This document shows, piece by piece, positions 40-33,942 of a stretch of DNA of 36,924 nt; positions within the stretch are counted from its first letter, which is position 1; every line of letters starts with the position of its first letter. A program made the translations under genes and the position numbers. The notes below the pieces were generated by a model. It saw nothing but the letters and a program-made list of their open reading frames with translations. It ran no database searches and was not told the origin of the DNA. Origin of the DNA: a virus; the IMG/VR virus record IMGVR_UViG_3300044837_000017, positions 1 to 36,924 of that record; one strand, written 5' to 3'.

Positions 40-324
40 GTGAGTCAACAGAAGATGAATGCACAGGTCGTGCAAGTGAGTGGTGGGAGCTATGTTCTGG
101 CGCAGCCGACAGGGTTCAATCTGGCCTTTCCGAACGTGGTTATCAAGATCGAAGGTGCGTTCAGTGACTCGATTGCCAAGGGTATCCTTCGTATGCTGAA
201 CGAAGATCAGTGTGTCAACTGCGGCAAATTCAATGGACTGCATGGTGAGGTATTCCACGTCACGGATATGTCTGGCGGTGAAGTCAATGGGAAATATCGG
301 ATGTGCCCGTTAGGAGAGAAATGA
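40..324 (+). CDS. Small conserved-looking phage protein with Cys pair, unknown function
   Basis: The 94-residue reading frame starts at GTG 40, preceded by a GAGGGGG ribosome-binding site with about 7 bases of spacing. The C-terminal half carries a CVNC motif (around residues 58-61) and a further Cys near the end, so a small metal-binding knuckle is possible but incomplete. No signal peptide or membrane segment is visible. Its stop codon overlaps the ATG of the next gene (ATGA), so the two are probably translationally coupled and belong to one plus-strand operon that enters the window from the left. I do not recognise the family. Confidence 0.75.
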   Translation: MSQQKMNAQVVQVSGGSYVLAQPTGFNLAFPNVVIKIEGAFSDSIAKGILRMLNEDQCVNCGKFNGLHGEVFHVTDMSGGEVNGKYRMCPLGEK

Positions 325-980
325 TAGTTGGACTGCTGCTTATGGTTGGCGTGATACTTGCGTTCGGCCTAACCTTTTGGCTCTTGGGTGGAATTGAAGT
401 TGTCCTGACGATGCTCTTCCCATATCAAGATATCTTCCGTGATGGGACGAACGATATCTATCTGCGCCGGTTCTACATTTACCCGCGCAACAAGGACTTC
501 AAGCCGAACGAGTTCAAACCGCGTATCTACCTGCACAAGTTCTATCGCGGCGACGAAGACCCTCATCTTCACGATCACCCATGGCCTTACACGAGCCTGA
601 TACTGACTGAGGGATACTTCGAGGAGACGCCGTGGAAGCCGTTTGATGAATCAGGGTTGAGTCAGGATGACTACCTTCGCTCGAAGCTGGTGGACTCACC
701 CTTCAAGGATGCGCGTAGTTGGAGGCGACGAGTATTCTACAAGCCGTGGACTATCCTCAAACGCCCGGCGACTTGGAAGCATCGTGTCATCTTGAAAGAT
801 CGTCATGATGAAGATGGTAATCTCGTACCGGGAGGACAGCCCGCGTGGACTTTGATTCGTACTGGATCGAAGGAGCGTAGCTGGGGGTTCTGGTTGGACG
901 ACAAGTCCGAGCTTGACTTTTGTCCTTGGAGGCAGTATGATCTAGGTGTGTGCTATTGCACCCCTGAGGAGAAGAAATGA
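321..980 (+). CDS. Cupin-like protein with N-terminal membrane segment
   Basis: The start is ATG 321, not the in-frame GTG at 303, because AGGAGAG sits just before 321 and the ATG overlaps the previous stop. The 219-residue product begins with a hydrophobic stretch (about residues 2-33) that could be one membrane anchor. A cupin-type core follows: the HLHDHPW motif (residues 82-88, with His82, His84 and His86), Glu101, and a second-strand His154 in a TWKHRV context, as expected for a metal-binding double-stranded beta-helix. Cupin proteins with an HDHPW motif occur in phages, but their substrate is not known to me. It ends in an ATGA overlap with the next gene. The membrane anchor is an inference from hydrophobicity. 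Confidence 0.7.
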   Translation: MIVGLLLMVGVILAFGLTFWLLGGIEVVLTMLFPYQDIFRDGTNDIYLRRFYIYPRNKDFKPNEFKPRIYLHKFYRGDEDPHLHDHPWPYTSLILTEGYFEETPWKPFDESGLSQDDYLRSKLVDSPFKDARSWRRRVFYKPWTILKRPATWKHRVILKDRHDEDGNLVPGGQPAWTLIRTGSKERSWGFWLDDKSELDFCPWRQYDLGVCYCTPEEKK

Positions 981-4797: not shown

Positions 4798-6480
4798 CTA
4801 CGATCCGCATGTTCCCCCTTTCGTAAGGTCACATACATCCATTGCTTCGACAAACGTCTCACCTTCGTAGTCCATCGCTGTCTGGTAGCTGACTCGGGTG
4901 AGTGGTTGCCCGCCGCGTGCGCCGTCAGGATAGCATGTCATCCCCCGGAGCTTTGGCAAGTACTTGATGAGCATGTCGCCGAATGGCTTGACTGTCTCTT
5001 CGTTGTTGAGCACTGATCCCCACGGTGGAAGATTCAGCGTCGAACTGATTGCGTGATCCACGTACTGCTGGAGCCAAGCTTGGAACGCGATACGCCGTTC
5101 AGGATTCTGAGCCAACGTGTAGGCGTCTTCGATACTGTCTGGATCAATGCCGGATTCGATTAGCCGCTTCGCTGTAGGATCGAGCACGTAATTGAATTGC
5201 CAGACTAGTCCATTGAGCCAACGACGCATGTAAGCCACGCAGAAAATGGGTTCTATTCCTGTCGTTGTTTCCGCCATGATTCCGATGGTACCGGTTGGCG
5301 CAATAGCTCTTGTCTTGACAGGTCGAGAAATTCCCCAAGCATCAGCAATCCTCGCCGCCACTTCTGTTGAAGTTGCGTAGATTTCGAGATACCCTTTGAG
5401 TTCGTCGTTTGGTTCATAGGAAAGACCCCTCTGGAGTAGCCATTCGTGAAGCCCCATTAGCCCTAGGCCGAGTCGCCGGTTCTTTGTACGTACTTCCCCT
5501 ACCTTTTCGTACGGCAGATCGCTGTAGACCGTCCCAGCAAGTAAGAAGCGCGTGCCAACCTCGACTACAACCTGCATCTCAGCGAGGGATTCGATACGGC
5601 TCATGTTGATGGACCCTAGGTTGCAGATGTCCGAGTCCGTGGCTGAGGTGACCTCTGTACAGGCGTTGCGAAGCGTCTCGTTATCCCAGTCGAATGAGAA
5701 GCCGGGTTCGCCGGTCTTGAGCATTCGCTTGACGGTATCCCAGTAGACCTTCTGTGCCCATTCGTGCGTGACGTGCGCGTAGCGGTCTGGATCACTTGCT
5801 GGTCCGCAGATCGGATAGACGTAGTTCGGATCGTAGAAAGCCTTGATGAATTCTGGATCGAGTTGAACAGAGATGTTCGTCCCATCCATCATCGCAGGGA
5901 AGTTGAAATCCTTTTCTTTGAGAGCGCGTACCTCAGGTGACCAATCCTTCAGAGCGATGAACTCGAAGATGTCTCTGTGCCACCATTTGAGTCCAGCCCA
6001 AATCGCTGAGCGCCGTGAGCCGCCTTGCATGATACCCCGGCCAGCTTCGTTGGTCATCTGCATCAAGGCTATCGGCCCTGTAGCAAACCCGCCTGTGCGC
6101 CTGATGATCGAGCCGTATGGACGTATGGGACTGTAGTCGATCCCGATGCCCGCGCCTGTCATGAGCGACATGGCGCATTTGTGAAGGTGATCGGCCCAAC
6201 CTTCGCGAGAGTCTTCTGCTCTCATGAGAAGGCAATTCTGTACTTGATGAAAGTCTCTGCCCGAAGCGTATAAGTATCGGCCTCCGGGGATAAATTTGCG
6301 TTGTGCGATAAGTCTGGCGGTAGCGTCTACGTATTGCTCGTTACCGGGGACTGCGCCGAGGACGTTCTTCGCGACTCGGTATGCTATCTCCGGCCACGTC
6401 TCTTTCGAGCCATCAATCTTCAGGTGTGCGTACTTCTGGTTCATGATGGCTAGGGCGAAAGCGGACATCTCGTTATTCAA
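4798..6480 (-). CDS. nrdJ: Class II (adenosylcobalamin-dependent) ribonucleotide reductase
   Basis: The 560-residue protein is a ribonucleotide reductase large subunit that makes deoxyribonucleotides. Catalytic features are visible: NACTE (Asn272, radical Cys274, Glu276), the redox cysteine pair Cys83 (QNC) and Cys286 (CNLGS), APTGT (residues 394-398), and a C-terminal cysteine pair Cys550/Cys558 for re-reduction by thioredoxin-like donors. Length, lack of an ATP-cone domain and lack of a neighbouring small radical subunit fit class II, which uses vitamin B12 coenzyme; the exact class is inferred. The start is TTG 6480 behind AAGGAG, with the next ATG (codon 5) too far from the site. It is the last gene of the minus-strand accessory operon. 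The host must supply or import cobalamin if the class call is right. Confidence 0.9.
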   Translation of the reverse strand: MNNEMSAFALAIMNQKYAHLKIDGSKETWPEIAYRVAKNVLGAVPGNEQYVDATARLIAQRKFIPGGRYLYASGRDFHQVQNCLLMRAEDSREGWADHLHKCAMSLMTGAGIGIDYSPIRPYGSIIRRTGGFATGPIALMQMTNEAGRGIMQGGSRRSAIWAGLKWWHRDIFEFIALKDWSPEVRALKEKDFNFPAMMDGTNISVQLDPEFIKAFYDPNYVYPICGPASDPDRYAHVTHEWAQKVYWDTVKRMLKTGEPGFSFDWDNETLRNACTEVTSATDSDICNLGSINMSRIESLAEMQVVVEVGTRFLLAGTVYSDLPYEKVGEVRTKNRRLGLGLMGLHEWLLQRGLSYEPNDELKGYLEIYATSTEVAARIADAWGISRPVKTRAIAPTGTIGIMAETTTGIEPIFCVAYMRRWLNGLVWQFNYVLDPTAKRLIESGIDPDSIEDAYTLAQNPERRIAFQAWLQQYVDHAISSTLNLPPWGSVLNNEETVKPFGDMLIKYLPKLRGMTCYPDGARGGQPLTRVSYQTAMDYEGETFVEAMDVCDLTKGGTCGS

Positions 6481-32263: not shown

Positions 32264-33295
32264 TTAGCTGATTGCAGAAGCCGCGTCGATCTGCCGAATG
32301 CGGACAGTGGTATCAGGACCAAGGGAGGTCGTGAAGTGGACGCGGTACGAGGTCCATCCTGGGATCAGCCCTTCAGGATCGGCAACGCTCGGTTCGGCAT
32401 TCTGAACGACGTTGCACTTGATGTTCGACCACTCACCGTCACCGTACTCGGTGTCGCCCTGTGCTCCAAGCTTGATGCTGTAGATGCCATCACGCCCGAA
32501 GATATAGGTACGAAGCGCCGTCAGACCAGTAACACCCTTGTAGTTAGCGGTGGTCGTGACCTGATTGCTCTGGAAGAAGTGCACGCCCGAAGACGGCAGT
32601 TCAATCATCTCGGTAAGGTCCACAGAGATGAGGTCTTCCATCTTCGCCAAGCCCACCGGGGTGTGCTTCAGGATGTCAATCGGGCTGTTATTGCTAACAT
32701 CCGAAAGAACGTCGCCGAGAGCAAACGGGTGGATCACGCCGCAGAATGCCTTGGATGCTTCATCGTAGGGACGAACCGAACGACCGGCAAGACTCTGGAC
32801 AGCGTTACGAATCTGGTTCAGCGAAAGCGAAGTGAAGCTCGTGGTGCTGGTTGCACCAAGCTGCACAAGGACGCTGGAGTCGATGCTGGATGCGCCGTCA
32901 GCAGTTGCACGGACAAGGCCAGACAGGGACTCGCCAAGACGGTACGCAAGCTCACGAGCGACGTTCTCAACAGTGCTGTCGATTGCGGTTGCAAGCGAGA
33001 GACTGGAGAAGTTCGCATAGTCAGCGTACTCACCGATAGTGGCTGTGGTGTTGAGCACTTGAACCGTGATCGAGCCGCCAACCGTGCCTTCGTTGGTCTG
33101 CGCAGTGTTAGCTGCCAGAGGCACGTACATGAACATCTCGTACTGGTTACCGCTCTTGGTAGGCAGATCAAGACGCTCGGAGCAAGCTACGAACGGGGTC
33201 TGCGCTTTGAGGTTTTCGCGAAATTTCTTGTCATAGAATTTCACGGTGGACTGAGGAAGATTTCCCTGAAGATTTCCAGCGGGATTGTAACTCAT
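32264..33295 (-). CDS. Major capsid protein, N4 gp56 family (HK97 fold)
   Basis: The 343-residue protein matches the N4 gp56-type major capsid pattern. It has an N-terminal YDKKFRENLKAQTPF helix (residues about 21-35), then SERLDLP-KSGNQYEMFMYVPL and the long E-loop-to-spine stretch with IGEYADYANFSSLSL. A conserved middle follows (ELAYRLGESL, QIRNAVQSLAGRSVRPYD), then the CGVIHPFALGDVL motif and the C-terminal RTYIFGRDGIYSIKLGAQG. No protease site is seen. It forms the icosahedral shell. ATG 33295 has AAGGA nine bases upstream, displayed in a hairpin loop. A structured leader precedes it and a strong terminator follows, consistent with high expression. Confidence 0.9.
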   Translation of the reverse strand: MSYNPAGNLQGNLPQSTVKFYDKKFRENLKAQTPFVACSERLDLPTKSGNQYEMFMYVPLAANTAQTNEGTVGGSITVQVLNTTATIGEYADYANFSSLSLATAIDSTVENVARELAYRLGESLSGLVRATADGASSIDSSVLVQLGATSTTSFTSLSLNQIRNAVQSLAGRSVRPYDEASKAFCGVIHPFALGDVLSDVSNNSPIDILKHTPVGLAKMEDLISVDLTEMIELPSSGVHFFQSNQVTTTANYKGVTGLTALRTYIFGRDGIYSIKLGAQGDTEYGDGEWSNIKCNVVQNAEPSVADPEGLIPGWTSYRVHFTTSLGPDTTVRIRQIDAASAIS

Positions 33296-33324: not shown

Positions 33325-33396
33325 CCCTATCTAACAACCTCCTCCCAGAAGTAGTAAGACATGGAATAAAGCCTTCAATGTGATGACAATCTCTGG

Positions 33397-33414
33397 ACCA
33401 GTAATCCGACTGGT
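33397..33414 (-). other. Leader hairpin A with conserved CGGATT loop
   Basis: On the minus strand ACCAGT-CGGATT-ACTGGT forms a perfect 6-bp stem with a 6-base loop in the leader of the capsid gene. Hairpin B at 33483-33498 has the same loop and a compensated stem. On the plus strand a TTT follows, so a weak antisense terminator is also possible. Confidence 0.6.
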
Positions 33415-33427
33415 TTTGATATTGCGC

Positions 33428-33444
33428 CGTCAAGGTCTTTGACG
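33428..33444. other. Leader hairpin between A and B
   Basis: CGTCAA (33428-33433) and TTGACG (33439-33444) form a perfect 6-bp stem around a 5-base loop. No T run follows on either strand. It adds to a run of four hairpins in the 218-base capsid leader. Confidence 0.5.
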
Positions 33445-33482
33445 ATCTTAGTATCCTCAGCACATAACTCAGGGAACGGTTC

Positions 33483-33498
33483 GTAGTAATCCGACTAC
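33483..33498 (-). other. Leader hairpin B with conserved CGGATT loop
   Basis: On the minus strand GTAGT-CGGATT-ACTAC forms a 5-bp stem with the same 6-base loop as hairpin A. Two stem pairs differ from A, and pairing is kept (AC/GT versus GT/AC at the base). It begins 16 bases after the stop of the acetyltransferase gene. Confidence 0.6.
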
Positions 33499-33513
33499 TT
33501 GTCGTTCAATGTT

Positions 33514-33942
33514 TCAAACGAGCCGCTTACGCATGATGAGACCATGTATATGTGGCGCGTAAAGATTTGGTTCAAGAGAAGCAACGCGATAACCTAGATC
33601 GAAGTACAACTTCTGAGCCGGGTTATCTACACGCGTATGCAACCACGCTCTTCCGTAGTCTTGCGCGATGTAGTACTTCTCAAATTCTTTGATGAGAGCA
33701 GTCGCCAAGCCCTTGCCTCTATAGGCCGGGTCTGTAGCGACACTCCAAATGTAAGGTGTGCCTTTGCTCACTTCTGAGACTAAAGAGGCTGTAACCTTGC
33801 CACTATCTTCAGTAATCCATGTCGGAAACTTAGATACGGCTTTCCAATACTGTGCATCATCCCAAATCTCTCCGGGGTAAAGGTCTCGTATTGTAGAAAG
33901 CAGTGTGGTAAGGTCTGCGGTGGTTGCAAGCCGGATACTCAA
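33514..33942 (-). CDS. GNAT family N-acetyltransferase
   Basis: The 142-residue protein shows a complete GNAT fold. An N-terminal IRLATTADLTTL helix is followed by strands, and the acetyl-CoA pyrophosphate loop RGKGLA (residues 75-80) sits after VATDPAYR. A helix (TALIKEFEKY) follows, then the NPAQKLYFDLGYR segment (residues 107-119) typical of motif B. Such enzymes move an acetyl group from acetyl-CoA to an amine or protein N-terminus. The substrate is unknown. Its place between the scaffold candidate and the capsid gene makes a capsid or host target possible. ATG 33942 follows GGGAGGTAAGCTTTG in the intergenic space. It is a bona fide catalytic family, unlike the gp13-position protein. Confidence 0.85.
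   Translation of the reverse strand: MSIRLATTADLTTLLSTIRDLYPGEIWDDAQYWKAVSKFPTWITEDSGKVTASLVSEVSKGTPYIWSVATDPAYRGKGLATALIKEFEKYYIAQDYGRAWLHTRVDNPAQKLYFDLGYRVASLEPNLYAPHIHGLIMRKRLV

Follow-up and report, generated by a model that had tools for sequence, protein, structure and literature searches.

Comparison of related sequences indicates that a conserved folded RNA is located directly upstream of the major capsid gene in soil phages related to a phage of the Acidobacteriota. In the window, by which we mean the whole 36,924-nucleotide stretch analysed here (a 36.9-kb fragment of a viral record), this element is predicted to be an RNA of about 127 nt composed of a hairpin (H1), a three-way junction (P1, P2 and P3) and a second hairpin (H2), with a probable pseudoknot. 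The RNA probably acts in cis on the capsid message. Our best explanation, to which we would give a little less than an even chance, is that it represents a new cis-acting capsid leader RNA and that a putative protein reads both of its loops, thereby setting capsid expression.

Genomic context and architecture of the element

The closest named relative of the window is the Tunturiibacter phage Tunturi_3 (97.6 kb), with 75% DNA identity across 78% of the final 7 kb of the window; it has been described as a podovirus with an Acidobacteriota host (PMC11924767). Both hairpins are found on the minus strand between an acetyltransferase ORF (end 33514) and the capsid ORF (start 33295). The element has the sense of a late operon of about 28 kb and lies near the start of this operon, ahead of its most expressed gene; no sigma-70 promoter was found ahead of H1 in the window. 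The features are listed below in the order of the message, with reference to two MAFFT alignments made by sequence only, A3 (15 sequences) and A4 (13 sequences including the window), and to a covariance model, R1, built from A3 only with the window left out.

33514..33942, minus strand: GNAT acetyltransferase gene, upstream of the element (Pfam PF00583, E 4e-14)
33372..33498, minus strand: whole element, comprising H1, linker, P0/P1, junction with P2 and P3, H2 and tail AAGGC (R1 match 33362-33502, E 1.9e-4 over 587 kb)
33483..33498, minus strand: H1, 5-bp hairpin GUAGU-CGGAUU-ACUAC, loop 33488-33493 (base pairs 1, 3 and 4, counted from the loop, covary more than the phylogenetic null allows; pairing in 98.5% of A4 cells)
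33473..33474, minus strand: 5' side of P0, CC, with proposed partner GG 33372-33373 (the weakest helix: 81-87% of cells pair, and the counts show no two-sided change)
33461..33465, minus strand: 5' strand of P1, AUGUG, pairing with CACAU 33378-33382 (invariant in window-type relatives; GCG/CGC with two-sided changes in the other type)
33455..33458 and 33432..33435, minus strand: putative pseudoknot, in which GAGG may pair with CCUU of P2 (pairing in 97% of A3 cells and 83% of A4 cells; few two-sided changes)
33428..33444, minus strand: P2, hairpin CGUCAA-AGACC-UUGACG (two-sided changes: A3, 6 of 8 pairs; A4, 3 of the 4 counted)
33421..33425, minus strand: 5' strand of P3, GCAAU, pairing with AUUGU 33386-33390 and enclosing H2 (two-sided changes in 4 of 4 pairs in A3, one at E<0.01)
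33397..33414, minus strand: H2, 6-bp hairpin ACCAGU-CGGAUU-ACUGGU, loop 33403-33408, capping P3 (base pairs 1-4 covary more than the phylogenetic null allows; pairing in 95.4% of A4 cells)
33386..33390, minus strand: 3' strand of P3, AUUGU (alignments A3 and A4)
33378..33382, minus strand: 3' strand of P1, CACAU (alignments A3 and A4)
33337..33352, minus strand: H3, predicted hairpin ACUUC-UGGGAG-GAGGU, whose loop is Shine-Dalgarno-like and lies 52 nt ahead of the capsid start (of 23 distinct relatives having a loop like this here, 18 have a stem of at least 4 bp; stem sequences differ)
32264..33295, minus strand: major capsid protein gene, 343 aa (PHROG 1357 'major head protein', E 3e-15; 95% identical to the Tunturi_3 major head protein)

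The order within the element is thus H1, linker, P0 (CC/GG), P1, junction with GAGG, P2 and the H2-capped P3, followed by the tail AAGGAC or AAGGC; GAGG and AAGGAC are conserved unpaired stretches. The pairing of GAGG with the P2 loop shows swaps, read by eye, in L063/L065 and in L057. Minimum free energy folding of one relative (L013) shows all of the nested helices and that of another (L009) most of them. H3 is found between the element and the start codon in many relatives whose element is outside an ORF and is a possible output site. In a subgroup of relatives (L009 at 2740-2815, L011, L012, L015 and L086) there is an extra hairpin, CUAG-AUAGA-CUAG with paired variants, just upstream of H1; it lies within a longer stem and is flanked by AGUGACC and GUAAAC, and in this subgroup the RNA may extend further 5'.

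Several other observations were made on these genomes. The window carries a cysteine dioxygenase-like gene (303-980, plus strand) and a gene for a ribonucleotide reductase large subunit (4798-6480, minus strand). The annotation of Tunturi_3 (PP885686.1) includes two RNA ligases, an RNA 2'-phosphotransferase and an RF-1-domain release factor (50823-52049, 57272-58462, 64650-65207 and 82469-82807), possibly an RNA-repair set against an RNA-cleaving host defence. The capsid gene is split by intron-like inserts in many relatives (L017, L041, L057, L070, L085, L095 and others), often after about codon 22 and in three places in some (L085), and the insert ORFs resemble, by eye, homing enzymes of the HNH/endonuclease-VII type (L017, L041, L070), HNH type (L085) and LAGLIDADG type (L057, L095); Rfam recognised no intron in eight loci with an interrupted capsid gene. 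Near the downstream part of the split gene in L057, L058 and L079 a hairpin is present twice, at about -57 and -33 relative to the capsid match; its loop is GGTGAC or close to it, and its stems differ.

Selection acts on the RNA structure

An earlier note, made from the letters of the window alone, had described two hairpins with identical loops and matched stem changes. These are present on the minus strand, and two of the five stem pairs which they share differ, both being compensated (U-A/C-G and G-C/C-G). Taken by themselves the hairpins of the window are weak evidence, because the CGGATT hexamer is not over-represented (18 found, 16 expected) and the folding energy is ordinary (z about -0.1 for the 138-nt core and -1.8 for the whole leader); the thermodynamic excess being weak, it was left out of the supporting evidence. 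Relatives were collected as 80 viral loci with a related capsid gene, and most of these carry, upstream of that gene, one or two hairpins with the same loop on stems which are different but paired. A census of hexaloops on perfect stems of at least 5 bp in 83 sequences (the window, Tunturi_3 and the viral loci; 524,800 bases) showed CGGATT to be the commonest by far, with 78 hits on 24 different stems, all of them on the capsid-sense strand, the runner-up GGAGGA being found on 9 stems. The loop consensus is NGNAUU with G2, A4, U5 and U6 invariant.

In A3, 96.5% of cells pair and 14 pairs show two-sided changes (6.8 in shuffles), with slid registers reaching at most 49%; in A4 the values are 89.4%, 13 pairs (8.0 in shuffles) and at most 44%. 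In both alignments the observed covariation score was reached by none of 500 shuffles and by no slid register. The structure leans towards these sequences because it was read off them, and P3 is poorly aligned in A4, with only 61.5% of its cells paired. Under a phylogeny-aware null, in which substitutions were evolved along the tree, all significant pairs fell inside the proposed structure (2 of 2 in A3 and 1 of 1 in A4). When H1 and H2 alone were analysed in 55 distinct element pairs, including those embedded in an ORF (see below), 7 of 1596 column pairs were significant and all seven were stem partners in register. The covariation in relatives for which the earlier note had called is thus present. 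In the nested helices G-U pairs far outnumber A-C mismatches (32 to 4 in A3 and 17 to 3 in A4, in sum 49 to 7), and it is therefore the capsid-sense RNA which selection constrains.

In one subgroup of relatives both hairpins fall inside the ORF preceding the capsid gene. Wherever the hairpin pair was scored in this group the H1 loop has a single codon phase; the H2 loop has two, its translation being either S-R-I or, in other phages, P-G-L or P-A-L, and since this loop is kept in two reading frames the RNA and not the peptide is conserved. For the whole junction this group gives weak R1 matches only (E 0.001-0.035; L018, L050, L044 and L045). In five of its members (L022, L037, L059, L067 and L072) the stretch from H1 to H2 contains an additional hairpin whose loop is NGTNCA, and this hairpin may pair downstream. 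An origin of the pattern by chance or as a coding artefact is ruled out by the 24 stems of the hexaloop census, the two frames of the H2 loop and the phylogeny-aware covariation. The view that the hairpins are selected RNA structure is accordingly strongly supported by covariation, wobble asymmetry and conservation across reading frames. Both hairpins are real, but they are not free-standing; they are arms of the larger three-way-junction RNA.

Distribution and link to the capsid gene

R1 gave 60 matches over 82 sources, placed where the capsid leader is expected, and recovered the window (at the E value listed above) together with other sequences outside the training set. Over 16 phage records there was one match each in ten and none in six, with never more than one per record; several of the six negative records have an ORF-embedded or divergent form by direct inspection. 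A context-free DNA pattern, which makes no reference to genes, identified 52 loci in 2.9 million viral contigs. Of the 51 loci examined, 48 have a capsid N-terminus about 75-109 nt downstream (two of these, L103 and L113, assigned by an exon-1 motif) and in the remaining three the sequence ends within 69 nt. A pattern scan of bacterial genomes was uninformative on hosts and prophages, the matches listed being mostly repeats of Marinimicrobium and Marinobacter, taken to be REP-like, which share GTCGGATTAC by chance. The best named distant relative of the capsid protein was found in MW202801 (27% identity), and three further scans for more distant relatives mainly returned the same contigs.

Comparison with known RNAs

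Rfam 15 gave no match in the window at gathering threshold, and on the leader, at E up to 10, a chance hit only (13.9 bits, outside the element). A literature search, with few subscription papers within reach, found no RNA of this kind described. The guanidine-II (mini-ykkC) riboswitch is similar in having two hairpins with identical loops and free stems, but its loops are ACGR, whereas those of the element are NGNAUU, lie about 70-160 nt apart, with H2 inside a three-way junction, and precede a phage capsid gene; with neither ACGR loops nor an Rfam match the element does not belong to this class. The coat-protein operators of MS2 and PP7 and the boxB of lambda share with it a short hairpin with a sequence-specific loop and a free stem; the element differs in its two junction-joined copies, its other loop and its tailed DNA phage context, and its 5-bp stems contain no bulged A, which sets it apart from the MS2/PP7 operators. 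The put RNA of HK022 and EAR are likewise cis RNAs of phage or bacterial operons which act co-transcriptionally; put has about 70 nt and two long stems (PMC9378689), the element is a three-way junction of about 127 nt with a different fold and sequence, and by its fold it is not a put RNA. CsrA is the obvious reader of GGA loops, and the paired leader hairpins of most members do present GGA in the loop, as do CsrA/RsmA targets. In the element, however, GGA occupies loop positions 2-4 and is not invariant: position 3 varies, giving CGCATT or CGAATT on paired stems in 4 of 55 H1 and 4 of 55 H2 hairpins, while AUU is kept. No csrA (PF02599) match was found in the 16 phage records, in a search in which positive controls were detected. 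CsrA is disfavoured as the reader because of these changes to C or A and the lack of csrA in the phages. Comparative searches for structured RNAs in bacteria and metagenomes (PMC2864571) have likewise found leader RNAs, a few of them in phages (manA, wcaG), and the main text of that report has no mention of capsid, to which the present element is tied. On these comparisons the element would be a conserved structured leader RNA, a known kind, with an unusual target and architecture.

Possible modes of action

Protein-read hairpins are usually recognised by an invariant loop on a free stem. Since the two hairpins keep the same loop and their stems are free to change, we infer that the loops are read by an RNA-binding protein, and the presence of two copies suggests a dimer. 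Both NGNAUU loops would then be bound by a putative protein, made by phage or host and probably acting as a dimer or as two copies; the junction and the pseudoknot would fix the geometry of the two sites, and how much capsid is made from the message would depend on binding, which would act either on message stability or on how accessible the ribosome site near H3 is. No candidate partner was identified, and the Tunturi_3 annotation offers none clearly. The roles suggested in the earlier note can be placed here: message stabilisation is possible, and so is a site for a putative translational regulator, for instance in capsid feedback. The covariation of P0 and of the pseudoknot is not strong, which counts against the protein-read leader, as does the ORF-embedded group, in which ribosomes should run through the element. 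In most of its members some 260-300 nt separate H2 from the capsid start; a ribosome site simply blocked by the element is hard to square with this distance, and antitermination or 5'-end processing would be compatible with it. Alternatively, the duplicated identical loops may serve for tertiary docking within a ribozyme or riboswitch.

Among the alternatives the one with most weight, though still unlikely, is a co-transcriptional antitermination or anti-pausing RNA, like put, EAR or boxB, in which the nascent element would modify the polymerase that transcribes the long late operon. In favour of this are the copy number, never above one per record, and the placing of the element near the start of the operon and in its sense; a co-transcriptional signal might also be tolerated inside an ORF. 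No dedicated protein is needed by put itself, which works in cis across 10 kb or more (PMC9378689). Terminator-like hairpins are also found just upstream of H1 in three relatives (L084, L024 and L013), but these terminators are upstream of the element and not downstream, and the late region of the window shows no enrichment of terminator-like sites (13 found, 16.6 expected), with one good terminator only (19239-19215) between late genes; an Rfam match is lacking too. The same three hairpins hint at a transcript boundary and so speak for a 5'-end determinant, namely a self-cleaving ribozyme or nuclease processing site which releases and protects the capsid mRNA. A compact junction with a probable pseudoknot and conserved unpaired GAGG and AAGGAC, directly ahead of the most needed late gene, would suit this role, but Rfam gives no ribozyme match and two identical hairpin loops are atypical of a ribozyme core, so that we consider it improbable.

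A metabolite riboswitch controlling capsid expression is more improbable again: junction and pseudoknot are of the right architecture, and guanidine-II riboswitches likewise use two hairpins with identical loops, but the context-free scan never places the element before metabolic genes, a capsid gene is an unlikely metabolite target and there is no Rfam match. Least credible of all is a DNA-level feature, be it a palindromic operator, a hairpin for replication or a single-stranded hairpin promoter of the N4 type. Such a feature would be in keeping with the constant centre of the hairpins and with the podovirus morphology of Tunturi_3 (PMC11924767). A palindromic operator is rejected on the G-U bias and the varying stems, P1-P3 form a multibranch fold, and N4-type promoters are DNA hairpins with three-base loops, while the loops here have six bases and the G-U bias points to RNA.

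Implications

Promoters and ribosome sites provide most of the explanation of how tailed DNA phages obtain very large amounts of capsid protein from within a long late operon. A complex conserved RNA devoted to the capsid gene, and retained even where it is forced to overlap a protein-coding gene, would add a layer to this control. The pseudoknotted three-way junction displaying two NGNAUU loops may, in a bolder reading which we regard as possible but doubtful, define a new class of phage RNA, a dedicated module by which soil phages of a large group control the synthesis of their capsid; this module would be the receptor of a phage-specific RNA-binding protein, or else a new ribozyme or antiterminator. 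The cultured relative Tunturi_3, together with its host Tunturiibacter psychrotolerans X5P2, makes the element directly testable, and the duplicated hairpin could serve as bait for a new sequence-specific RNA-binding protein.
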